A model generated the notes under the pieces. The model did not search any database and was not told the origin of the DNA. It was given only the letters and a program-made list of their open reading frames with translations. 64,000 nt of DNA from NCBI RefSeq assembly GCF_034092415.1, contig NZ_CP139304.1:310001-374000 (forward strand), given 5' to 3'. The position numbers were made by a program, and so were the translations under genes. This document shows positions 1 to 12,400 of this stretch, piece by piece (position 1 is the stretch's first letter; every line of letters begins with the position of its first letter). Source of the stretch: Prochlorococcus sp. MIT 1341. Its GTDB lineage: Bacteria; Cyanobacteriota; Cyanobacteriia; PCC-6307; Cyanobiaceae.

Positions 1-777
1 CTGTGTTTTATATGGGAGTGGAAGGTTAACTTTATTTCCAAAATCTGCAATTGAGGAGCCCGTTAAGATCATGGCCTCTCTTACCATTCTTCTAGAGAGA
101 CAATTCTCTATTATTTTCACTTTTAGATTTCCTTCATCATTCATGTAAAATTTTCCCTGATTTTGCTCCATAATTAAAGCTCCATTAGACAATCTCCAGT
201 TAAGTCTATTCTCTAGCAAACTAGAAATGATTCTAAGATCCTTATCACCAGGGGGATCTAAATCAATCAATTCATCTGCTTCGGAATAGGTCAAAGAATA
301 GTTAACTTTTACCCATGATCTACATATTTTTGTTTTGCTTACAGATCCGTCCTCTGCAAGCAAAATTGAAACACTTAGTGCAGCCCGTGTACGGCATGAT
401 TGTAGACTTATTAAATTATCCGTAAGTTTGAAAGGCAGCATTGGGATAACTCTATCGACTAGATAGAGACTTGTGACCCTTTTTTTAGCCTCCTTATCTA
501 AGGAGCTATCAGCCCTTACCACTCGACACGGGTCTGCGATATGAACCCACAAAATATCTCCTTCTCTTGTTCTCTCTAAAGATATAGCATCATCAATCTC
601 ATAGCTATTCTCGTCATCTATTGCGTAAGTTTTTAATTTAGTTAAATCCTCTCGACTGTTATCGCCATTGTTTATTTTATCTGAAATCTCTAGAAGTTCC
701 GATGTTTCCTTCAATGAGTCCTCTGAAAAAGAGTGATCCCAAACGGTCTTTGAACTTATAGAATTTGACAAATGCAT
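1..777 (-). CDS. rnb: RNase II/R-family exoribonuclease, 3' part cut off by window edge
   Basis: This is the N-terminal 259 residues of an RNB-domain 3'-5' exoribonuclease, which degrades RNA processively with Mg2+. The reading frame is open from an ATG at 777 to the window edge. The family metal-binding motif is visible near residues 51-66 (AIDDENSYEIDDAIS), although the first Asp of the usual DxDD is Glu here. Only about 50 residues precede the RNB core, so the cold-shock RNA-binding domains of E. coli RNase II/R are missing, as in other short cyanobacterial forms. It lies downstream of rpmG and rpsR on the same strand and is probably co-transcribed with them. The family is certain; the choice between rnb and vacB/rnr is only a naming matter. 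Confidence 0.85.
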   Translation of the reverse strand, partial: MHLSNSISSKTVWDHSFSEDSLKETSELLEISDKINNGDNSREDLTKLKTYAIDDENSYEIDDAISLERTREGDILWVHIADPCRVVRADSSLDKEAKKRVTSLYLVDRVIPMLPFKLTDNLISLQSCRTRAALSVSILLAEDGSVSKTKICRSWVKVNYSLTYSEADELIDLDPPGDKDLRIISSLLENRLNWRLSNGALIMEQNQGKFYMNDEGNLKVKIIENCLSRRMVREAMILTGSSIADFGNKVNLPLPYKTQ

Positions 778-886
778 CCAGATATTATTGAAGGATCTTT
801 TTTAACTTATTTGCTAATAATAAAAATTTAGGAAAAGTGAATATATTTATTATACTAGTTTTATATCTGAACAAAGTATAGAGAGG

Positions 887-1108
887 CTACCCTTCAGGGT
901 TAATAAAAGGTAATAGAGCTACTATCCTGGCTCGCTTAACTGCAGTTGTAAGATCTCTTTGTTGCTTTGCTGTTAAACCAGTCAATCGTCTTGGTAGGAT
1001 TTTTCCTCTATCAGTAATAAACTTTTTTAAAAGATCTACATCTTTATAATCAATAGGATCTCCTGGTTTAATTGGAGAAAGTCTCTTTTTAAAAAACGAG
1101 TTAGACAT
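887..1108 (-). CDS. rpsR: 30S ribosomal protein S18
   Basis: This 73-residue S18 is a small basic protein of the 30S platform that binds next to S6 and 16S rRNA. The diagnostic stretch [16 protein letters not shown] is present in the second half, and the length is normal for the family. It lies about 40 bp downstream of rpmG on the same strand, and the RNase II-type gene follows. This rpmG-rpsR pairing is common in cyanobacteria and plastids and suggests one ribosomal-protein operon. Nothing unusual is seen. Confidence 0.97.
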
Positions 1109-1148
1109 GTTTTGATGGATTAACGGTCAAATGGTTGTATTCAATTGA

Positions 1149-1343
1149 TCACTTTATCTCCTTATGGGGAGTAGATCGATTGCAGTGTGTGCAGAATTTT
1201 TTGATTTCCAGACGTTCTGTTGTGTTCCTTCGGTTTTTCTCTGTGGTGTAGCGAGAGACCCCAGGAGAACGCTTGGCGGTATTGGACCGGCATTCGGTGC
1301 ACTCAAGAGTGATCACGATCCGGACGCCCTTGTTTTTGGCCAT
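1149..1343 (-). CDS. rpmG: 50S ribosomal protein L33
   Basis: This 64-residue L33 of the large subunit is of the zinc-ribbon (C+) type, with cysteine pairs at residues 15/18 and 51/54. The N-terminal [18 protein letters not shown] is characteristic. It is the first gene of a minus-strand run with rpsR and an RNase gene. It is divergent from pheT, and the shared control region between 1344 and 1463 is short. An open frame on the opposite strand across this gene has no family resemblance and was dismissed. Confidence 0.97.
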
Positions 1344-1463
1344 AAAAGGACGTTTCGCCGCTTTTGCTAAGCGAAATAAATGAATCTATATCCTACAAGG
1401 GAAGGGGCCCTATCCGAATGGACTGATTTATTCGTAGTATCAATTACTAATCACATACAACCT

Positions 1464-3971
1464 ATGCGGGTTCCACTTTCCTGGATTAGGGAGTACGTCT
1501 CCATACAGGATTATTCAGCGAACCATATCGCTGAAAAGCTTTCTATGGCAGGCTTTGAGGTGGAAGCTGTTGATGATTCATCACAGAACGCAAAAGGTGT
1601 TGTAGTTGGCCGTATTCAAAGTGTAGATAGTCATCCGAATGCGGAAAAGCTCAATGTATGCAAGGTGGAAATTGGAAAAAACGAACCAATACAAATCGTA
1701 TGTGGAGCGTCTAATGTCAAGCCAGGGATCCATGTGCCAGTCGCTCTGGAAGGGGCTGAGCTGAAAAATATAGGAATGAAAATAAAAGAAAGTGAAATAA
1801 GAGGAGTAAAAAGCTATGGAATGATTTGTTCGCTAAAAGAACTGGGACTTGAAAATGAATCTGAAGGAATAGCAATACTTGATGAAATTACAGATGAAGT
1901 AAGGGCTTTAGGTACAAAGGTGGATACCTTGTTGGGTTTGAATGACCAGGTGCTAGATATAGCAATAACCGCTAATAGACCAGATGGAATGTCAATTATT
2001 GGGATAGCGAGAGAGATATCTGCAATATTATCGAAGAAGCCATTAAAAGAAGAGGAACATTTAGAAGTAACTGAAATACAGCAATGGGACCCAAATAGCA
2101 AACAAGAGGAACTTGGAAACACTAATCTATATTCATTGACATTTATTGATGATATTAACAATAAATTAAAAACACCTAACATCATAAGAGAACGCTTAGA
2201 TAAATGCAAGATTAATACAGTTAACCCTCTTGTAGATATAACTAACTACGTGATGCTTAAGGATGGCCAGCCATTACATGTTTTTGACATTGATGCTTTG
2301 GAAAAATTAACAGATAAAAAAGTAGACCAAGACAGTTTTTGTATAACCTATGCAAAGGAAAGCGAGTTGTTTGAAGGGTTAGATAATAACAAGATAACTC
2401 TGAATAATGATGTCCTTATGATCACGTGTAACGGTGTAAATGTAGCTATTGCTGGTGTAATGGGATCACGTCATAGCGGAGTTACGGACATGACAAAAAG
2501 AGTGGTATTGGAAGCGGCTGTATTTCCACAATCACTAATTCGTATAGGTGCTAGGTCAATTGGAATACGAACAGAATCAAGCAGTAGGTTTGAAAAAGGG
2601 GTGGCTGAAGATTTAACATTAGACAGCGCATTAGGTGCAGTAAGTATGATTAAAAAGGTCTGCGAGGCGAACCCAAAACAAACATGGTTCTACTCTGATA
2701 GTAAAATCAAAAAACGAAAACTAATACTAAGGCGTGAAGCTATAGAACGAATTTTAGGTCCTATAATTGATAAAAAAGAGGCTAAAGAACTTATTTATAC
2801 TGAGAGACAAAAGGAATCTAATCAGAGAAATTCTAATGTAGAATACATCACAGATGAAAATATCGAGGAAATACTTTATTCACTGAATTTAGATTTTATT
2901 GGAATAAAGCAGGGATGGCAAGTGGAAATACCTGCCTATAGAGTTAAGGATATAACCCGGGAAATTGATATAATTGAGGAAATAGCAAGAATGGTTGGTT
3001 ATGATAATTTTTCATATAATTTACCTGAGCCAATAAAGCCCGGCGTACTTAATGACGAACAAATTTTTGAAAGGACTATTAGAAATAGCCTTACATCTGT
3101 AGGTATTCAAGAGATCACTACAATGTCCTTAGTTGGCCGAGAGAAAAACAATCCAACCCAGGTTATAGTCAAAAACCCTTTCCTCTCAGAAGCTAGTTGT
3201 CTAAGAACAAATTTGTGGGAAGAGCATATTGAAATATGCAAACGAAATCTTAAGGCATCAAAATTAGGTTGCTGGATATTTGAAATAGGTAAAATATATC
3301 AGTTGGGAAGACAAAATGAAATCAATGAGAAAACCATATTATCTGGAATCATTTGCGGTGAGAAAGGAATGGAATTTTGGACAGATGAATCAAAAAAAAT
3401 AAAAAATAATTACTATCGTGCAAGGGGCTTAATAGAATTAGTTTTTAGATCCATGAAATTAGAATTAGTAGATAAACCAATAAAGGATGAAAGACTACAT
3501 CCTGGAAGAGCATCAGAACAGATACTGGAGGGCAAGCATTTAGGGTATTTTGGACAAATCCACCCTGCTATTTGTGAAAAAAATGATCTTCCTTATAATA
3601 CGTTCCTATTTGAATTCAATTACAATCAACTATCTGTTGCTGCGACAAGGTCTAACAAGTTAAGACCAACTTTGAAGTCATTTGCCACAGTTCCTCATGT
3701 AGAAAGAGATATATCATTAGTTGTTGATAAGAATGTGTTAGCAAGTGATATTATAAGTGTAATAAAAAAATCAGCAAGACCTCTTCTAGAAACAGTAGAG
3801 CTAATAGATAGGTATGAAGATAAAAACATAGAGCAATTAAAATGTAGTCAGGCTTTTAGACTAAGATATAGAAGCAAAGAAAGAACACTGACCGATGAAA
3901 TAATTGAACCAATTCACGAAAAAGTAAGAATTGCGTTAGTTAAACAACTAAACGCTGAACTTCGCAGTTAG
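1464..3971 (+). CDS. pheT: Phenylalanyl-tRNA synthetase beta subunit
   Basis: This is the beta chain of the alpha2beta2 enzyme that charges tRNA-Phe; the alpha subunit (pheS) is not in the window. The frame is open from 1380, but the family start MRVPLSWIREYV falls on the ATG at 1464, giving about 835 residues. Domains in order are an EMAP/OB-type tRNA-binding fold (about residues 40-150), the B3/B4 editing module, B5, the catalytic-like core, and a C-terminal ferredoxin-like anticodon-binding domain (motif PHVERDISLVVD). The 3' end overlaps the convergent methyltransferase gene by 24 bp. The identification is secure. Confidence 0.96.
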   Translation: MRVPLSWIREYVSIQDYSANHIAEKLSMAGFEVEAVDDSSQNAKGVVVGRIQSVDSHPNAEKLNVCKVEIGKNEPIQIVCGASNVKPGIHVPVALEGAELKNIGMKIKESEIRGVKSYGMICSLKELGLENESEGIAILDEITDEVRALGTKVDTLLGLNDQVLDIAITANRPDGMSIIGIAREISAILSKKPLKEEEHLEVTEIQQWDPNSKQEELGNTNLYSLTFIDDINNKLKTPNIIRERLDKCKINTVNPLVDITNYVMLKDGQPLHVFDIDALEKLTDKKVDQDSFCITYAKESELFEGLDNNKITLNNDVLMITCNGVNVAIAGVMGSRHSGVTDMTKRVVLEAAVFPQSLIRIGARSIGIRTESSSRFEKGVAEDLTLDSALGAVSMIKKVCEANPKQTWFYSDSKIKKRKLILRREAIERILGPIIDKKEAKELIYTERQKESNQRNSNVEYITDENIEEILYSLNLDFIGIKQGWQVEIPAYRVKDITREIDIIEEIARMVGYDNFSYNLPEPIKPGVLNDEQIFERTIRNSLTSVGIQEITTMSLVGREKNNPTQVIVKNPFLSEASCLRTNLWEEHIEICKRNLKASKLGCWIFEIGKIYQLGRQNEINEKTILSGIICGEKGMEFWTDESKKIKNNYYRARGLIELVFRSMKLELVDKPIKDERLHPGRASEQILEGKHLGYFGQIHPAICEKNDLPYNTFLFEFNYNQLSVAATRSNKLRPTLKSFATVPHVERDISLVVDKNVLASDIISVIKKSARPLLETVELIDRYEDKNIEQLKCSQAFRLRYRSKERTLTDEIIEPIHEKVRIALVKQLNAELRS

Positions 3972-5333
3972 AGAGGTTGACAATGTGAGAAATGTGATAA
4001 CTTCCACATGTGAAGTTTGTGGAAAAAAATCGTAGGGGTTTACAGATTCAATTACATATAAGTTATCTTCGCAAAACGCTTTTAAATCACGGGCGTGAGT
4101 TGAAACATTGCAACTCATATATGCTATATAACTAGGACGTGAATTAATTATAGTCTGTATAATATTGCTTGAAAGACCTTTGCGAGGGGGGTCTAAAACA
4201 ACAGCATTAAAATTGTTTATGTACTCAGAAATATGATTATCAACATCTTCAACAAGAAAATCTGCGTTATTCAGGTTATTAGCTCTTGCATTTAGTCTAG
4301 CCAAATTTATCGAATCACTATTTACTTCAATACCAAGAACATTTAAGCCCTTAAAGGCCAGTGGAAGGGAAATTGTTCCTATTCCACAATAACAATCAAG
4401 CACTGAATCTACATTTTTAGATGAAATCCAATCTACAATCTTAGTTACTGCTTGTTCGGCAATAGAGGTATTTAGTTGAAAAAAAGAGGTTGATGAAATT
4501 AGGAGACGCAGACCGCAGAAATATTCTTCTATGTAGGGTTTACCACAGACAAGAATAGTGTCATAACCAAGTATCGAGTTAGAGTAATTATCCTTTATAT
4601 TTAAGGTAACCCCAACTATATGACTATCAGATTTCAACCATTTAGTAGCTAATTGTTCAAGGCCTGGTAGATTAGTTGTATTAGAAACTAATGTTAGTAA
4701 TGTCTGATTAGTACGATTACTTGTACGAATGCCTAAAAACCGTAGGCCTGAAAATTTAACCTTGTCAGAATTCATTTGCCAACTTATATTATCAAGATCC
4801 GGTCTAATTAATTTTATCAAATAATTAATGTGTTCATTATGAACAGGGCAGGATGTCATATTAACGATGCTATGGGTGCCTCTTTGATAATATCCAATGT
4901 TTATTTCCCCACCTTTCTCTTTATTTAAAGGGATTAATGTGCGATTTCGATATCCAAAACTATTCCCACATGAATTAATTGGATTAAGCTTGAAATCCTT
5001 AATGTTGGAAATTCGAACTATAGAATCCAATACGTGTTTATTTTTTGATTGAAGCTGTTGATCATATTTTAAATGTTGAATAGTACAACCACCACACTGG
5101 GGAAAAACACTACATATTGGAGCCTCTCTATTCTTGGACAAAGAACGTATATCAAGTAATTCGGATAGCCAAATTGAGCCCTTTTTTCTCAAAAGGCGCA
5201 CTACTGCAATTTCGCCAGGTATTAATCCTGGTACTGATACAACTGTTTTACCGGAACGGGCAATCCCGAGACCGTGGCGATCAAGATCAACACACTCGAC
5301 TTCAATTTGCTTAGCCTCTAATTCCTGGAACAT
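3948..5333 (-). CDS. rumA: 23S rRNA (uracil-5-)-methyltransferase, RumA/TrmA family
   Basis: This 461-residue SAM-dependent enzyme methylates C5 of a uridine in rRNA or tRNA. It has an N-terminal TRAM RNA-binding domain (about residues 5-65), iron-sulfur-type cysteines (CSVFPQCGGC and an upstream region near residue 90), a SAM-binding motif CYCGIGTISLPLAF, and the catalytic cysteine in YMSCNVSTHARDL followed by the family C-terminus. The bound Fe-S cysteines point to the RumA/RlmD or RlmC branch rather than TrmA, but the exact target base cannot be assigned from sequence. It converges on pheT with a 24-bp overlap, and a repeat-bearing gap lies upstream. Confidence 0.88.
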   Translation of the reverse strand: MFQELEAKQIEVECVDLDRHGLGIARSGKTVVSVPGLIPGEIAVVRLLRKKGSIWLSELLDIRSLSKNREAPICSVFPQCGGCTIQHLKYDQQLQSKNKHVLDSIVRISNIKDFKLNPINSCGNSFGYRNRTLIPLNKEKGGEINIGYYQRGTHSIVNMTSCPVHNEHINYLIKLIRPDLDNISWQMNSDKVKFSGLRFLGIRTSNRTNQTLLTLVSNTTNLPGLEQLATKWLKSDSHIVGVTLNIKDNYSNSILGYDTILVCGKPYIEEYFCGLRLLISSTSFFQLNTSIAEQAVTKIVDWISSKNVDSVLDCYCGIGTISLPLAFKGLNVLGIEVNSDSINLARLNARANNLNNADFLVEDVDNHISEYINNFNAVVLDPPRKGLSSNIIQTIINSRPSYIAYMSCNVSTHARDLKAFCEDNLYVIESVNPYDFFPQTSHVEVITFLTLSTSLTAKFSV

Positions 5334-5393
5334 AATTGGCTATTTTCGATTAGTAATTTAATTGAGAAACCACTGTTCTTCCTAAACTCATAT

Positions 5394-5424
5394 GAGACTA
5401 TATTTAAGTCTTACCCTGAGTCTA
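5394..5424. repeat. Three AGWCT heptads with exact 12-bp spacing
   Basis: The heptads GAGACTA (5394-5400), AAGTCTT (5406-5412) and GAGTCTA (5418-5424) are separated by two 5-bp spacers, so their centres are 12 bp apart, just over one helical turn. The core AGWCT is self-complementary, so each unit is a small palindrome. The same geometry recurs at 5900-5930. Confidence 0.8.
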
Positions 5425-5502
5425 ATCATATACGTAGAAGATCTATTTTGTAGATATTGGATTTGTCGCTTCCGCCAGCTCCCAAATAAAGCATAAGATG
5501 TA

Positions 5503-5564
5503 TAGTCTAGTTAATCTATACTAAGACCTATCATGGGACTAATAACGAGTCTCATATTAGACTA
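5503..5564. repeat. AGWCT cluster with degenerate members in 12-bp phase
   Basis: Clear units are TAGTCTA at 5503-5509, GAGTCTC at 5547-5553 and TAGACTA at 5558-5564. One-mismatch copies AGACC (5524) and GGACT (5536) fall exactly 12 bp apart and 12 bp before the unit at 5548, so the phase continues through decayed copies. The last step is 11 bp. Confidence 0.65.
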
Positions 5565-5611
5565 AGAAGATTGCTTATTACTGGTGTTTTAAGTCCTGTG
5601 CGTTCTGAAAG

Positions 5612-5648
5612 TCATCGCGTAACTGTCTATATAGCAGTTACGCGATGA
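5612..5648. repeat. 14-bp perfect inverted repeat, 9-nt loop
   Basis: TCATCGCGTAACTG (5612-5625) and CAGTTACGCGATGA (5635-5648) are exact reverse complements around the loop TCTATATAG, which is itself nearly palindromic. No T-tract follows on either strand, so it is not a standard intrinsic terminator. It could be the core of a small RNA or a protein-binding palindrome. Confidence 0.85.
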
Positions 5649-5899
5649 GTGAAACCTTTTGCTGTAATTAGAATATGCTACATAAACTTTCTTTTTGGAC
5701 GGATACTGGACGCTGAAGACTACATTTTGATCGAATTCAATTTTACATTGTTTGAATAATTTGCTTTTTTAAATGCATACCAAATGTATTCCAGTTCAAA
5801 TCTCTCATTTGAAACTTAACCTTTTTCCGCAAAACAAGTCGAAAGTCAATTACGGAAACGAAACGTGAAACCCCAGTCAAGTGTCCATCTGTCCGATCT

Positions 5900-5950
5900 G
5901 AGACTCTTTTATAGACTAATCCTTAGTCTATAAATAGATGCATGAGACTA
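5900..5950. repeat. Second phased AGWCT array with perfect hairpin, next to RHH/J gene stop
   Basis: GAGACTC (5900-5906), TAGACTA (5912-5918) and TAGTCTA (5924-5930) repeat with 5-bp spacers (12-bp period). A fourth unit, GAGACTA (5944-5950), contains the stop codon of the RHH/J-domain gene. Units two and three form the 10-bp perfect hairpin TATAGACTAA / TTAGTCTATA (5910-5932) with a 3-nt loop. No poly-T follows on the minus strand, so a conventional terminator is unlikely. Confidence 0.8.
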
Positions 5951-7006
5951 ATTATTCTTTCTGTATAGCTCCTTTAGAAGTTGATATGCTTCATTAAGTC
6001 GCCTCATAGCTTCTGTAGATCCTCCTGCATCAGGATGATCCTCAACAGCCTTTTGCTTATATGCGTCTCTTATCCTACAAAGCGTTAAGGCAGAACCTGC
6101 TGTTGTAGGTAACGATAATAGTTTTAATGCACCATGTACGGTCATAGTTGATTCAAGAGTCTCAAATGAAGTTACATTTCTACTGCGTTTAAAACTATTA
6201 ACAAACCTCCTTATAAGAGTTGGCATTCGTTGAGGAAGAGTACTAGTAGCAAAAGGATCCTCAAGTACACCAGCAATAACCATAACCTTTTCAAATGAAG
6301 GCGTTTCTGACCTCCATTCCTTACAGTGCTTTTGCATATTTTGATTTGCGCGAGTCCATGTAAACAATCCGGAGTCAGCTCCTTCAGTATGTAACCAAAT
6401 ATCCCTCGCTAACCAAACCATTGCGGCTTCGACGACTGTTTCGCCAGGTCTTTTTCCATATAGTGATTTCCAGTGTTGTGTAGCACTTTCTAGACTTCTT
6501 TCAATATCGTCACTGCTAACAAAGGCTACAAAGGGTTCATTATCTTGGTTAACTGGTTTTGTATTAGGCCGTAAACTTTCTTTAATACGTTGTCCTCTTT
6601 TACTTACAAAACCTGGTAAATCTATACCATTAGGCTTAGTACTTGTTGATTCCGGGATTCCAAAATTAAGGTTATTTCCTGATAATTGTTGAAAAGTTGA
6701 AGCTGTAGGTTTGTTCTTATCACCAATTAGAACAAGAGCTGTATTTTCGTCATAAGGCGTATTTTGAGAATTAATTTCTTGGATTGTTGATAATTCATTT
6801 TTGGTATCAGAATTAAGGCTCTCGATATCTAAAGACTTTGTTATAGGCAATGAATCCTCAAGTAAAACTTCCTCTAACAATCTCTTAAGGACAGCGCCTC
6901 TTGCTCTTAAGCCCCACTCTTTTTTCAATTCGTCAAATCGAGACACTAACTCTTCAGGAAGATCAACGGATATACGCTTATTTTTTTTCTGGGGTGACTC
7001 CGTCAC
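5948..7006 (-). CDS. Ribbon-helix-helix plus J-domain protein, function unknown
   Basis: This 352-residue protein has an unusual domain pair. Residues 11-49 look like a CopG/Arc-type ribbon-helix-helix: strand RISVDLP, helix EELVSRFDELKKEW, turn, helix ARGAVLKRLLEEVL. The linker to about residue 160 is polar and low in complexity. Residues about 160-280 form an unrecognised globular, partly helical region. The C-terminus is a J-domain-like segment with an intact HPD at 324-326, so it could stimulate a DnaK. The only plausible start is GTG at 7006. Its 3' end lies in an AGWCT repeat array. A role as a DNA-binding co-chaperone or transcription factor is inference; the middle region was not matched to any family. 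Confidence 0.8.
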   Translation of the reverse strand: MTESPQKKNKRISVDLPEELVSRFDELKKEWGLRARGAVLKRLLEEVLLEDSLPITKSLDIESLNSDTKNELSTIQEINSQNTPYDENTALVLIGDKNKPTASTFQQLSGNNLNFGIPESTSTKPNGIDLPGFVSKRGQRIKESLRPNTKPVNQDNEPFVAFVSSDDIERSLESATQHWKSLYGKRPGETVVEAAMVWLARDIWLHTEGADSGLFTWTRANQNMQKHCKEWRSETPSFEKVMVIAGVLEDPFATSTLPQRMPTLIRRFVNSFKRSRNVTSFETLESTMTVHGALKLLSLPTTAGSALTLCRIRDAYKQKAVEDHPDAGGSTEAMRRLNEAYQLLKELYRKNN

Positions 7007-7319
7007 GTAATTGAAGGGAGTGTATTTACATTATATTATTTGAATTATGGAATGATGCTAATAATTTTGATTATTTGTTTTAGATATGAAATTGCACTTG
7101 CTTCAACAAGCTTAACTATTAGCACATATTCGTCTAACTAAAGAAATCGATAATAATTAAAATTTTTTATTCTATTCCTTCCAATAATATGGCTATTTTG
7201 ACTTCTATTAAAAAAGCTTAATAAAATATTCCTATGTAGAATTTCACTTAAAAACGTTACTAACCACAAATTTCAAAATTTCTACTAAAATAGAAATTGA
7301 TTAAAACCACCACCTAAAA
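7007..7319. other. 313-bp AT-rich gap between divergent genes
   Basis: This gap lies between the GTG start of the RHH/J gene and the start of a 59-residue ORF on the other strand, so it must carry both promoters. The only clear structure is the inverted repeat AATTTCTA / TAGAAATT at 7277-7298 with a 6-nt loop, just upstream of the small ORF. No AGWCT unit, tRNA or coding frame is seen. Confidence 0.6.
7277..7298. repeat. 8-bp inverted repeat upstream of small ORF
   Basis: AATTTCTA (7277-7284) and TAGAAATT (7291-7298) are perfect arms around CTAAAA, ending 21 bp before the start codon of the 59-residue ORF. It could be an operator or a leader hairpin. AT-rich palindromes of this size can arise by chance. 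Confidence 0.45.
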
Positions 7320-7499
7320 ATGGATTCCTGTTACTCGGAAGGGACAGTACTAAAGGCCAGGAGAAAATTTCAGGCCAGAAGATTAATGGCCCTGAAAGGT
7401 TGGAGAGATTCTCTAGAAAGACGTATTGCAGCTATAGACGCATCAATCTCAACACTAGAAAATCAAATTAATAGAGATAATGAATTAAATATAAATTAA
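7320..7499 (+). CDS. Small basic helical protein, 59 aa, unknown
   Basis: This short frame encodes 59 residues. The core has the patterned segment KARRKFQARRLMALKGWRD followed by a probable amphipathic helix (ERRIAAIDASISTLENQI). The Arg/Lys-rich N-terminal half and Leu/Ile-spaced C-terminal half look like a real small coiled-coil protein rather than random translation, and I recall similar short conserved hypotheticals in marine picocyanobacteria. Start ATG 7320; no strong Shine-Dalgarno is visible, which is common in this group. Its 3' end is tail-to-tail with the Ap4A phosphorylase gene. RNA or DNA binding is possible but unproven. Confidence 0.6.
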   Translation: MDSCYSEGTVLKARRKFQARRLMALKGWRDSLERRIAAIDASISTLENQINRDNELNIN

Positions 7500-7502
7500 T
7501 GA

Positions 7503-7545
7503 TAGTCTATGAATATTTAAGGAAAAATATACTTAAGTTAGACTA
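7503..7545. repeat. Inverted pair of AGWCT heptads 36 bp apart
   Basis: TAGTCTA (7503-7509) and TAGACTA (7539-7545) match the repeat units of 5394-5950. Their spacing is 36 bp, three times the 12-bp period. The second unit overlaps the stop codon of the Ap4A phosphorylase-like gene. The pair could also fold as the foot of an RNA hairpin in this convergent gap. Confidence 0.5.
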
Positions 7546-8386
7546 AGTCAACTACCCCTTCAACCAACCTATCTGGTCCATAATTATATAACCAATTTAT
7601 GTCTGATGATTCTGTAGCTAAAAGGTACCCAGCAAATCCCAGAGAATTAATACTAAAACCTTTATTAGATTCTTTTTTTCTCCTAATTAAACTCATCCAA
7701 TCCTTTGTAATTAGTAAATTATATGGTTTCAGGGGTCTATTATTTAGTTCTGGTGAACCAATCTTTAGTTGATTGCAAAGGTTTAGGTATAAGTCATACA
7801 TATCCTCAGGGGTCATTCTTTCAATACTTTTAATCGCTATAACTTTGCAGGAATTGAATAACAAACCCTTTCTTTCCTCTTTAAAATCTATAAGATCTTT
7901 AAACCAGTAGTCCCTTGGACAAAGCGCCTCATCAATTCGTCGAGGCAACAACTGTAAATGCCTATGAGGTTGGCTTGCCCCAGCAATTGGACCACTGTTA
8001 AAGAACCAAAGTCCTGTAGTGTCCTGATCTACCGTCAATAGAGCTTCCCAATCTTTATAAGTAAGCCAACCATTTTGAGGTGCCCACGTTTTAGTTATTA
8101 AAAGCATATGGCCTATTTGCACTGGATACTTGTTCAAAATCAGAGCATGATCCTGACCTATTTCTGCAATCTCTAGGTTTGTATCCCAAGGATTGAAAGC
8201 GTTCTCCTTTGGCCCATATATAGGGTTAGGAAATTTTGCTGTTTCTAAAAGGGTTCTTACTTCAAATAAATGTCCAAATTTATCATTTACAACTTCCATA
8301 TGGGTTTTCAATGGAATAAGACTATTCTTATTTATTGCATAGTTGGTTCTATTTATTGCCTTCTTCCAATAAACTTCTTTAATCAT
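7538..8386 (-). CDS. Ap4A phosphorylase / ATP adenylyltransferase-like protein
   Basis: This 282-residue HIT-superfamily nucleotidyltransferase of the APA1/APA2 type would phosphorolyse diadenosine tetraphosphate to ADP and ATP, or run the reverse adenylyl transfer. The signature is NSGPIAGASQPHRHLQLLP, with the catalytic-type histidines at 141 and 143 (His-x-His). The N-terminal and C-terminal halves match the two parts of the ATP_transf fold. The length is close to that of the yeast and bacterial family members. It stands alone, with long gaps on the upstream side. A CRP-like palindrome sits only 1-17 bp before the start codon. The family is clear; the in vivo substrate is not. Confidence 0.88.
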   Translation of the reverse strand: MIKEVYWKKAINRTNYAINKNSLIPLKTHMEVVNDKFGHLFEVRTLLETAKFPNPIYGPKENAFNPWDTNLEIAEIGQDHALILNKYPVQIGHMLLITKTWAPQNGWLTYKDWEALLTVDQDTTGLWFFNSGPIAGASQPHRHLQLLPRRIDEALCPRDYWFKDLIDFKEERKGLLFNSCKVIAIKSIERMTPEDMYDLYLNLCNQLKIGSPELNNRPLKPYNLLITKDWMSLIRRKKESNKGFSINSLGFAGYLLATESSDINWLYNYGPDRLVEGVVDLV

Positions 8387-8387
8387 T

Positions 8388-8403
8388 TGTGATCATAATC
8401 ACT
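8388..8403. promoter_or_regulatory. CRP-like palindrome overlapping the start region of the Ap4A gene
   Basis: TGTGATCATAATCACT matches the CRP-family pattern TGTGA-N6-TCACA except for the last base. It ends one base before the ATG (8386) of the gene it precedes on the minus strand. At this position a bound regulator would more likely block than activate transcription. No binding protein is known here. Confidence 0.35.
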
Positions 8404-8570
8404 TCGTATCAAGCTTATCGACACTTTTCCCATTAGCATGAACAAGTTTATGACAAAGTAACTTTTAAGTCAGAAAAGCTAGATACGGAGTTGCATTAAT
8501 ACAAGAAAACATCTCGGGCGAGATATGGTGACCTCAAATTTTTTTCAAATTAAGCCCAACTAAATTTCTC

Positions 8571-8740
8571 CCACTGGTTTAACGGTAGAAAAGGGTCTCC
8601 AGTGCTCTCTGCGGGGCGCCAAAGCGCATCGGATCACTAATTCATCACTGAAGCGTTTCGGAATGGCTTTCCATGCCCCCTAGCGGGGCTTAGGCCTCGC
8701 TAGGGGCTTAGGCCTCGCTAGGGGCTTAGGCCTCGCTAAA
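8571..8740. ncRNA. Putative structured RNA or DNA island, strand unknown
   Basis: This is a GC-rich stretch in otherwise AT-rich non-coding DNA. Several pairings are possible: CACTGG (8572-8577) with CCAGTG (8599-8604), ATGG-CTTT-CCAT near 8663-8674, GCCCC (8675-8679) with GGGGC (8685-8689), and alternatively CCTAGCG with CGCTAGG (8679-8704). The competing pairings and tandem repeat suggest a folded transcript. No Rfam family was recognised, and transcription is not shown by the sequence. Confidence 0.35.
8685..8738. repeat. Perfect tandem repeat, 3 x 18 bp
   Basis: The unit GGGGCTTAGGCCTCGCTA occurs three times head to tail without a mismatch (8685-8702, 8703-8720, 8721-8738). Each copy contains the palindrome AGGCCT. 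Two of three forward frames contain TAG stops, so it is not a coding repeat. Perfect identity suggests recent expansion or active homogenisation. Confidence 0.95.
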
Positions 8741-9005
8741 TCCTTTCGCAAGAAACCTGGTCACTGAAATGGGAAAGAATAAAAAGTAAAAGGTCTTTTC
8801 ACAAAGATGATTTTAGGTGGAGTCTCCTCAAGCTTTTTGGGAATGAATTGTTAATTACCCTAAAAATTTCTTATTTACCGATATTTGGTTCAAATTTGAT
8901 TCCACAACTCCTAAATCCCCTTATACCAATTGATCTCGGGCACTCTAGTGACCGAATTGATAGGGGTGGACTTAAAAATTACTGACACATTTTGTACATA
9001 GAAGG

Positions 9006-9040
9006 TTGACGTAGGCAGGGGGGAAGGCGTTAAACGTCAA
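9006..9040 (+). promoter_or_regulatory. Stem in the leader of the 76-aa gene
   Basis: TTGACGT (9006-9012) and ACGTCAA (9034-9040) are exact reverse complements enclosing a purine-rich loop, 17 bp before the ATG at 9058. It could be an untranslated-leader hairpin or an operator. TTGAC also resembles a -35 element, but no clear -10 lies at the right distance. Confidence 0.4.
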
Positions 9041-9057
9041 TCAGTTATTTCTCCTCA

Positions 9058-9288
9058 ATGGATTGGGAGTTCACAGAAGACGGCGCCTTCCTAGCTCTTT
9101 GCGACGCGTTTAGGGAAAGCGGCGAAACGTCAGCCATAGAGTTCCTCGCCAATGGTGAAGGGGCATTTCATTTTCAAGAACTCACACAGAATGCCGCCGG
9201 TGAGGGCATTGACCTCAGCGACTCGGATTCCTTAGATGATTTCCAGCAAAATGTGATAGATACTATGGAAAGCTTATGCCAGGATTGA
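9058..9288 (+). CDS. Small acidic protein, 76 aa, unknown
   Basis: This encodes a 76-residue, strongly acidic protein with two cysteines (near residues 15 and 74) and no membrane segment. It reads as a compact mixed helix/strand fold: WEFTEDGAFLALCDAF at the start, a FHFQELTQNAAGEGIDLSD middle and a short helix at the end. Codons are visibly GC-richer than those of the flanking genes, and it stands alone between long gaps. A stem lies in its leader and a short T-rich hairpin (CTTC-TTT-GAAG) about 50-60 bp after the stop. I do not recognise the family. Codon quality and composition make it a credible gene. Confidence 0.7.
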   Translation: MDWEFTEDGAFLALCDAFRESGETSAIEFLANGEGAFHFQELTQNAAGEGIDLSDSDSLDDFQQNVIDTMESLCQD

Positions 9289-9437
9289 AATCAAAGCAGA
9301 GTGCTAACAACAAATAATGTTTGATTGGTTCTTCTTTGAAGTTTTATTTTTTGATTTAGTTTGATTTCTAAAAGAAAAAGTTTAACCGTCACTTTCTTTC
9401 ATAGATATTAAGCTATTAATCAACAAACTAATCATAG

Positions 9438-12400
9438 TTAAGCACTAAAATACTTAGCCCTACTGTGTAACGCTACGATTGCAGTAGTGCTTTGCTCAGG
9501 ATGAATTTGCTCACTTTCATCCATAAATAGATTAATTTTCTTTGCCTCTAGCCATTCTAATTGCTTCATTGAGTCTGCCACATTCGGACATGCTGGATAG
9601 CCAAATGAATATCTAGCACCTCTATACCTCTGTCCAAGAATATCCTTCAAAAGATTTGGTTCCAGATGGGCAAATCCACATTCTTTTCGTATTATTGAAT
9701 GGACGTACTCTGCTAATGCCTCTGCTAATTGAACAGCTAAGCCATGAAAATACAGATAATCAGAATAATTATCTGTATCAAATAACTTTTTAGCAAACTC
9801 GCTTGCAAATGACCCCATGGTAACTGCCTGCATTGGCAAATAATCAACAGGTTTGTTTTCAATTAAATCGGCGAAATAATCAGATATGCAATAACGGTTG
9901 CCTGATCTCTGTCTAGGAAATTCAAAACATCCAATAGAGGAACAAGTGGAATCAAAAATTTCTAATCGATTTCCATCTCTCCCACAAGGGAAGTAACCAT
10001 ATACTGCTGAAGGTTGTAAAAGCTGATTTTCCTGGATCTCATTTAACCATTTTTTCAGTACAGGCTCTGCATTCTCCGAAATAAATGCGTTGTATTCATC
10101 CTGGGACATACCCTTAGTCTTTTTCATTTGCCATTGACTTGCATATAGTGCATTAAGGTCTAAATAAGGAAGAATAAATTTCAGTTCTAGATCATTTTCT
10201 GTCAAAACCTTTGGACCAAGAAATGGAGGTTTAACAGGGACTTCCTGACGGATCGTTTCAGAACGATGTGTACCTGATTTAAAACTAGCAGGTGATTCCG
10301 AATCATTTAAATTTTTTAAATTAATTTCTAATGACTTTTTCTGAGATAAACCTAGTTCGGTAATATTTATATTGTTGTTTAAAAATCCAGAACTATCATC
10401 CCACTCCTTGGTTTGTTTTGCCTTTATAAATGAATCCATAAATTTTAAATCAGTAAACGCATCCTTCCCATAAACAACTTGACCATTATAAACACTATTA
10501 CAATCATTATGAACAAATCGAGGCGTAAGTGCTGCTCCACCCAGAATGACCGGTACTGATATACCTTCTCTATTTAACGCCTCTAAATTGTCTTTCATAA
10601 AAGCAGTAGACTTAACAAGCAAACCACTCATAGCAATGCAGTCAGCATTATGACTTTTCTGGGCGTTAATGATAGCAGAAATTTCTTGCTTTATACCTAG
10701 ATTTATAACTTCATACCCATTATTTGATAAAATAATATCTACTAGGTTCTTTCCAATATCATGTACATCACCCTTTACAGTCGCAATGAGAAACTTACCC
10801 TTCGATACATTCTCAGCCCCGGATTTATCCATATAAGGTTCTAAATATTTTACGGCCGATTTCATTGTTTGTGCAGATTGAAGTACAAAGGGTAATTGCA
10901 TCTTTCCTGAACCAAATAATTCACCTACAACCTTCATTCCATCAAGAAGGAATTGATTAATAATTTCAAGAGGTTTATATTTTTTCAAGGCTTGGGAGAG
11001 ACATTTGTCTAAACCCTCCCTTTCACCATCAATAATGTGTTGTGGCAGCTGCTTCTCTATAGGAAGTGTAGAGATCTTTTCTTTTGAAGATCTGGCAGTT
11101 TTAGATGATATACCTTCAAAGATTGAAGTAAGGTTAGTTAGAGGGTCGTATGTACAAATTCCATTATTATATTTCCTAGAATCATGAATTAAATCATAAC
11201 AAGCTTGTGTATGTTCTAAACTAATTTTGTTAAGAGGGAGTATTTTTGATGGTGAAATAATAGCAGAATCCAAACCAGCCTTAACACATAAATCAAGAAA
11301 TACCGAATTCAATGTAATTCTCGTTGCTGGAGAAAGTCCGAAACTAATGTTAGATATACCCAGCACGATATGTACTCCTTTTAATTCTTGCTTGATAACT
11401 TTAATAGCATTTAATGTTTCAATTGCATTTCTTCTATCTTCCTCTATTCCAGTAGAGATGGGTAAAGCTAATGGATCATAAAAAATTTCATGCGGAGGCA
11501 TACCTAATTCAGTTGCTTGCTTATATGCCCTCTCTGCTATATAAAACTTTCTTTCAGTTGTTCTAGCCATCCCTTTCTCATCAATAGTCCCAATTACTAT
11601 TCCACATCCATATTTTCTTGCTAAATCTACGACTTCAAGAAACCTTCCTTCACCATCTTCATAATTAGTAGAGTTAATAATACTTTTACCTCCAGAAACT
11701 TTTAGACCACTTTCCATTTTTGTTGCCTCTGTTGAGTCGATCATCAAAGGCAAATTGATGTTTGTGACTAAACGAGAGACAAGTTCCTTCATATCAGATA
11801 TTCCATTTCTACCCACATAATCAACATTGACATCAATCACATGAGAATTCTCTTTTAATTGATTTTTTGCAATGCCAACTAATCCATCCCAGTCTTCTTT
11901 GTTTAGTAATTCACGTACCTTTTTAGAACCACTTGCATTTAACCTTTCTCCAATAATCAAAAAAGAACTATCTTGCTTATAGGGCGTAGTACTATATATA
12001 GAAGATAATGATGGCACATAATTATAAAGAGATGTTCTATATGCCCTACTGTGCGGATTTCTGCATGGTCTTGGCTTTATTGTCATTGACAAGGATAGTT
12101 CCCTTAATTTCTCAATATGTTCAGGGGTTGTACCACAACAACCGCCTATAACCCTTACCCCTAAATCTTCTATAAAATGCATTAATTGCATTTTTAATTC
12201 AAGAGGAGTTAGTTTATAATGAGCTCTTCCGCCTATATTCTCTGGTAGACCGGCATTGGGAATGCAGCTAATAATAAATGGTGAATTCTGATCAAGATAT
12301 TTTATATAAGATTTCATTTGCTCTGGACCCGTCGCGCAATTTAAACCTAATATATCTATTGGATATGGCTCAAGGATTGTTAATACTGCTGATATATCCG

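Follow-up and report, generated by a model that had tools for sequence, protein, structure and literature searches.

The closest described counterparts of the locus presented here are the single-recombinase forms of Xer/dif, namely XerS/difSL, XerH/difH and archaeal XerA/dif. These systems combine one tyrosine recombinase with a palindromic core of about 27-31 bp that has a short central region, and usually there is one such site per chromosome, located at the terminus. The xerS and xerH genes adjoin their dif sites (PMC5357621). In cyanobacteria, dif was predicted in none of five cases (Kono et al., PMC3025954), and a genome paper from 2019 likewise states that no dif has been predicted for the phylum (PMC6416890).

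Phased short repeats with a pitch of about 11-12 bp beside a ribbon-helix-helix (RHH) gene characterize the ParR/parC and ParG-type centromeres. The MatP/matS system pairs an RHH-domain protein with palindromic sites that lie in the terminus. Features of all three kinds of system are found together in Prochlorococcus sp. MIT 1341, in a 617-bp gap within the 64,000-nucleotide stretch of DNA that was analysed (contig NZ_CP139304.1, positions 310,001 to 374,000; hereafter the window). The gap, the parts of which are summarized in Table 1, is likely a replication-terminus resolution locus with a dif site, arm-type sites and an array bound by a reader protein.

Table 1. Features of the gap and its flanking genes in MIT 1341 (positions within the window) and variant cores of genus g9 (positions within the named stretch).
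Feature	Position	Strand	Description
RlmD/TrmA-like RNA uracil-5 methyltransferase	3948-5333	-	flanking gene
Array cluster C	5387-5432		CTCATATG-AGACT-N7-AGTCT-N7-AGTCT-AATCATAT; sites at 5395, 5407 and 5419; 12-bp pitch; RGWCY triple
Array cluster B	5502-5570		AGTCT 5504, decayed AGACC 5524 and GGACT 5536, AGTCT 5548, AGACT 5559
Candidate dif core	5617-5643		27-bp palindrome GCGTAACTG-TCTATATAG-CAGTTACGC; perfect 14-bp arms 5612-5625 and 5635-5648
Near arm-type direct repeat GTCCA	5696-5700	-	57 bp from core start
Far arm-type direct repeat GTCCA	5707-5711	-	68 bp from core start, 11 bp from near repeat
Isolated AGACT	5717-5721		between arm repeats and cluster A
Array cluster A	5896-5950		AGACT 5901, AGACT 5913, AGTCT 5925, AGACT 5945
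RHH and J-domain-like protein (RHH/J)	5948-7006	-	352 aa; candidate array reader
Variant core, g9 stretch L275	4357-4383		
Variant core, g9 stretch L277	5520-5546		
Variant core, g9 stretch L278	5595-5621		

The palindrome alone matches the pattern GYRTAMCTG-N(6-11)-CAGKTAYRC in this genome, and relatives that match it usually carry one copy, with two copies in a few of them. It is accompanied, on the RHH-gene side only, by the direct repeat unit GTCCA-N6-GTCCA, and both elements form a module within the gap that was absent from the first-pass annotation of this DNA. Palindrome and repeats look like a candidate dif of picocyanobacteria with arm-type sites for the one tyrosine recombinase of the genome. 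The palindromic organization of the core (GCGTAACTG-N9-CAGTTACGC) is shared with Xer/dif systems. Differences are seen in the one-sided GTCCA direct repeats, which are spaced about 11 (or 21-23) bp apart and are arm-type in look, and in the phased array that flanks the core.

The palindrome also folds well as RNA (z -5.45), and the same palindrome is present in viral contigs, as might be expected of an RNA hairpin, a terminator or a mobile-element attachment site to which the array would be unrelated. This account is very improbable. Neither a terminator-like T run nor an intrinsic terminator was found at the palindrome, and the terminator reading was rejected on these grounds. An Rfam search over positions 5000-6300 with E values up to 5 yielded two sub-threshold matches only, and with no family at threshold the reading as a member of a known RNA family was discarded as well. 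In addition, the core letters are conserved, a repeat lies at a fixed distance that would be needless for an RNA hairpin, and most genomes have a single copy at the terminus together with a near-universal recombinase.

Analysis of related genomes revealed that core and repeats are conserved as a unit. A match to RHH/J is present in 262 of 300 genomes of the family Cyanobiaceae, and relatives of this protein are encoded in 347 stretches of the genome collection. The downstream gaps were compared for 83 distinct loci, all of them found via the RHH/J gene, and a CTG-N9-CAG core was accompanied by a complete GTCCA at the near offset in 77 of these 83 gaps. The same combination was found in none of 81 upstream regions, once with the repeat on the opposite side of the core and never after shuffling. 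The motifs were refined on the same loci that were later counted, with controls run under identical rules, and the best core per gap was chosen before counting in gaps and controls alike; as the loci are related by descent, the counts are not independent. The alignment displays conserved core letters and repeats at a fixed distance, and the side of the core that faces away from the repeats lacks comparable conservation. An extra conserved stretch, roughly TTG..AT.A.....TTT, is located between repeats and core. In GC-rich relatives, the core is kept, the repeats frequently lie 21-23 bp from each other or go unrecognised and the array is more degenerate, while the high-light Prochlorococcus type exhibits altered outer core letters and holds the repeat offset. 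The use of TGTCCANNNNNTGTCC as a lone locus marker in genomes without RHH/J was abandoned, as its scattered matches did not include any that adjoined a convincing core. In one genome (G170), the assembly is interrupted between RHH gene and core. Of the two contigs concerned (C84 and C34; L261 and L262), one stops 375 bp past the gene and the other at a distance of 1.3 kb from the core; the array region may pose difficulties for assembly.

A single match to PF00589 was obtained in MIT 1341, and the corresponding protein of 388 aa (G000:C1:1897107-1898270), encoded near genes that read as cobO- and hemH-like, is the only tyrosine recombinase found in this genome. A homologue was matched in 195 of 197 good genomes, though a few of these matches are weak. 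The residues R240, K267, R332, H355 and Y364 are invariant in 11 homologues, and the HxxR box carries Y in place of H. A weak match to Arm-DNA-bind_2 was detected in two of the 11 homologues and stays below threshold (best E 0.015). The recombinase scores far below the NCBIfam cut-offs for XerA, XerS and XerD, so that no known Xer model is reached at its cut-off and the protein lies outside the curated Xer families. It is therefore "Xer-like" by its proposed role and not a member of XerC/D. Its gene is situated about 355 kb from the palindrome, in contrast to the adjoining genes of the XerS and XerH systems. Strong matches for RHH/J, the core pattern and the recombinase are missing together in the good genomes G028 and G051 and in G266, which hints at joint loss; assembly gaps may also account for it.

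The AGWCT array was the subject of the first-pass annotation, which reported eleven pentamers in about 560 bp, two runs of three with exact 12-bp spacing and decayed copies that keep the phase. Every start position was confirmed, the eleven sites falling within 556 bp, and so was the 12-bp pitch of the three sites in cluster C and the first three sites of cluster A, as well as the phase that the two decayed copies in cluster B carry into the site at 5548 (Table 1). In 5000 dinucleotide-preserving shuffles of the gap, AGWCT occurred 1.96 times on average with a maximum of 8, and 12-bp pairs 0.008 times on average; the observed eleven sites and four 12-bp pairs were reached in none of them. The first-pass annotation noted no such cluster in the other two large gaps; the densest 560-bp stretch outside the locus contains five AGWCT, and RGWCY-N7-RGWCY-N7-RGWCY triples occur three times in 464 kb of the MIT 1341 genome, all three in the gap. 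A genome-wide count of AGWCT-N7-AGWCT revealed 12 pairs, four of them in the gap, and 18 for a backwards control pattern. A window-wide excess of AGWCT was rejected, as 128 sites were found and 138 expected. Clusters B and C constitute an inverted repeat, and the core is flanked by the array, with clusters C and B on one side and cluster A on the other, where the last site overlaps the TAG stop codon of the RHH/J gene.

The array recurs in the gaps of the relatives, which exhibit 3.78 12-bp RGWCY pairs per 800 bp as compared to 0.02 in upstream coding DNA, with the higher value in the gap at all 83 loci. The histogram of AGWCT spacings peaks at 12, 24, 23 and 11 bp, followed by 35 and 44, and in the family consensus of the aligned clusters about four sites are arranged symmetrically between outer CTYATAT/ATATRAG half-sites. 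A degenerate triple search in 50 genomes placed 26 of the 34 matches in RHH/J-bearing genomes within about 2 kb of the RHH/J gene. The array is probably a terminus-organising one made up of putative binding sites. It shares with MatP/matS the presence of an RHH-domain protein and of palindromic terminus sites, but it is compact rather than dispersed (there is no other triple in the 464 kb), its 5-bp palindromes follow a 12-bp pitch and the candidate reader carries a J-like C-terminus. The MatP family was not matched in a Pfam scan of the RHH/J protein, which returned only RHH_1 and DnaJ, both sub-threshold.

The position of the locus on the chromosome was derived from the distance to dnaN and from nucleotide skew, the latter calculated on sampled stretches of MIT 1341 and a second genome, G073, which also supplied the background. 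In MIT 1341, whose chromosome has 1,937,096 nt, dnaN is located at 1,247,113 and the palindrome lies at 315,617, a separation of 48% of the chromosome. Among 52 complete relatives, the distance between locus and dnaN has a median of 0.487 of the genome and exceeds 0.40 in 50 of them (sizes rounded to 0.1 Mb). The AT skew of MIT 1341 switches sign near the locus, with the cumulative minimum at 299 kb (290-394 kb examined), which is 14-16 kb off the locus and not on it. In G073, a local minimum of the AT skew is found at 787 kb and the sign change at about 787-800 kb, next to the locus at 801-803 kb, even though 1.2 Mb is the position opposite dnaN in this genome. The region from 450 to 650 kb of G073:C1 (L177-L182) shows an AT skew opposite in sign to that of its neighbours and may represent a recent inversion.

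In genome G151, which we take to be MED4, the core is situated at 829,201-829,227. MED4 vesicle DNA is reported to be enriched in a ter interval spanning 826-832 kb, and its highest peak is assigned to "the dif site", for which literature is cited (PMC10913375). The MED4 core falls inside this interval. The centre of the interval is almost exactly at half the genome, and the match is therefore an agreement and not proof. The sequence behind the published "dif site" was not found, and a candidate dif may already be in the literature.

Near the skew switch replication forks would meet, and the array could for this reason be a trap that blocks forks at the terminus in the manner of Tus/Ter or RTP. 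AGWCT is palindromic, however, and the polarity expected of such traps is missing; moreover, the clusters lie within 600 bp around a recombination-like core, which leaves the fork trap a most improbable account. The terminus position also bears on the earlier proposal of centromere-like sites, which pointed the right way in that the locus lies at the replication terminus. No ParM/ParA-type ATPase was recognised beside the RHH gene among the listed ORFs of window positions 1-10000. A parS- or parC-like centromere would serve active segregation independently of recombination, and the palindrome would only be a part of it. The phased short palindromes beside an RHH gene do resemble the ParR/parC and ParG-type layout. 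Nevertheless, this alternative is unlikely, given that the large ORFs in the first 10 kb of the window include no recognisable partner ATPase or filament protein, that the site is at the chromosome terminus and not near the origin, and that the locus is centred on a core-repeat unit laid out like a tyrosine-recombinase site.

The neighbouring gene was annotated early on as coding for an RHH protein, and a weak match to PF01402 (RHH_1; E 0.0038) was obtained; like the match of the C-terminus to PF00226 (DnaJ; E 8.6e-5), it remains below the curated cut-off. The HPD motif is invariant in 34 RHH/J homologues, and J-domain chains are the best structure matches to the AlphaFold2 model, with Z up to 10.6 at a sub-threshold Pfam score. 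The listed fold matches cover essentially the J-like end and give no ground to regard the conserved middle domain as a new fold. A class-wide search yielded no full-length match to RHH/J outside the Cyanobiaceae. Elsewhere in MIT 1341 (L004 1480-1677; G000:C1 at about 561.7-561.9 kb), a DnaB-like helicase segment lies next to the gene for a 65-aa protein whose RHH domain resembles the one in the window protein.

RHH/J neighbours the array in nearly all genera, and the adjacency noted at the outset is found in 83 of 83 distinct loci, all of which were located via the gene. It was not seen in genus g9, a 60%-GC genus, where arrays persist and no RHH/J match was detected in seven genomes of 95-99% completeness. 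Five g9 stretches, obtained from the triple search, all contain phased arrays in which motif and 12-bp phase are retained. Three of them (L275, L277 and L278) carry a variant core, either of the GCCACACTG or of the GCAACACTG type, together with GTCC repeats at an offset of 58 bp; no core was found within the scanned stretches L276 and L279. In L275, L277 and L279, the array is bordered by mnmE, as read from translations and sequence. Thus, the outer core letters of g9 are changed while the core layout, the repeats and the array are kept, and recombinase match scores are lower too; it looks like core and recombinase co-diverge. The presence of arrays and variant dif sites without a detected RHH/J indicates that the array belongs with the dif-like module and not with the gene. 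Either another protein reads the arrays in g9 or a diverged RHH/J homologue was missed.

These observations also bear on the operator role that was initially considered. As an operator, the array would let RHH/J control either its own gene or the rlmD-like gene downstream. Autoregulation from phased palindromes is common among RHH proteins, and cluster C is located just upstream of the rlmD-like start. However, the RHH gene has the array at its 3' end, away from its promoter, and the array occupies both sides of the candidate dif; of 76 relative loci, some of which have short downstream sequence, only 36 show an rlmD homologue after the gap, though phased pairs are present in every gap; and g9 retains its arrays with RHH/J undetected. 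An operator is therefore quite improbable, and the rlmD-like gene is not thought to be part of the mechanism. As a reader of the array within a resolution locus, RHH/J is the best candidate, and its assignment to this role is plausible, with the chances about evenly balanced.

In the model favoured here, the palindrome would serve as dif for the single chromosomal tyrosine recombinase, whose N-terminus would probably recognise the GTCCA direct repeats as its arm-type sites. In the AGWCT clusters, sites 12 bp apart in symmetric groups of up to four would offer cooperative binding to a dimeric protein that builds a nucleoprotein patch on the terminus. Such a patch might keep sister termini together, or keep them at the septum, until recombination at dif occurs, or it might set the direction of recombination. 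With RHH/J as the reader, the J-like end could possibly recruit DnaK for the loading or removal of the protein.

Copies of the core are not confined to cellular genomes. Two exact palindromes were identified in 3 and 50 viral contigs, respectively (53 in total, L281-L333), and 14 of the 53 have a repeat pair at a similar distance, as compared to 0.6% of random positions. With regard to the 12-bp array, nothing beyond a single pair was found in the 53 contigs. A looser search pattern for viral copies, with 14 specified bases, proved too permissive for interpretation and was dropped. One contig (L330) encodes T7-like proteins according to its translations, and another (L328) resembles cyanopodoviruses. 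In phage P-SCSP1b of MED4 (L337 1350-1376), the core reads GCGGAACTGTCATAAGGACAGTACTAC, with GTCC at -69, -58 and -47; its right half matches the MED4 core, and 17 P-SCSP1-type phages share this segment with an identity of at least 90%. These phages possibly exploit the host recombinase. Phage-borne copies of a host dif-like core, as seen in the cyanopodovirus-like contigs and P-SCSP1, are likewise a feature of Xer-exploiting phages such as CTXphi, with the difference that the cases described here are known from sequence alone.

It is possible, though we would stop short of calling it probable, that the locus belongs to a terminus-management system restricted to this family, in which a single recombinase with arm-type sites acts at a dif unlike the published ones, a phased array is read by RHH/J or another protein, and host-type dif copies are carried by abundant cyanophages. 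With a candidate dif for the most abundant photosynthetic cells on Earth, the resolution of chromosome dimers and the handling of the terminus become open to direct tests in cyanobacteria. Furthermore, the candidate site could give a sequence-level location for the enrichment of terminus DNA in Prochlorococcus vesicles, and the phage copies suggest that lytic cyanophages carry the resolution site of their host.
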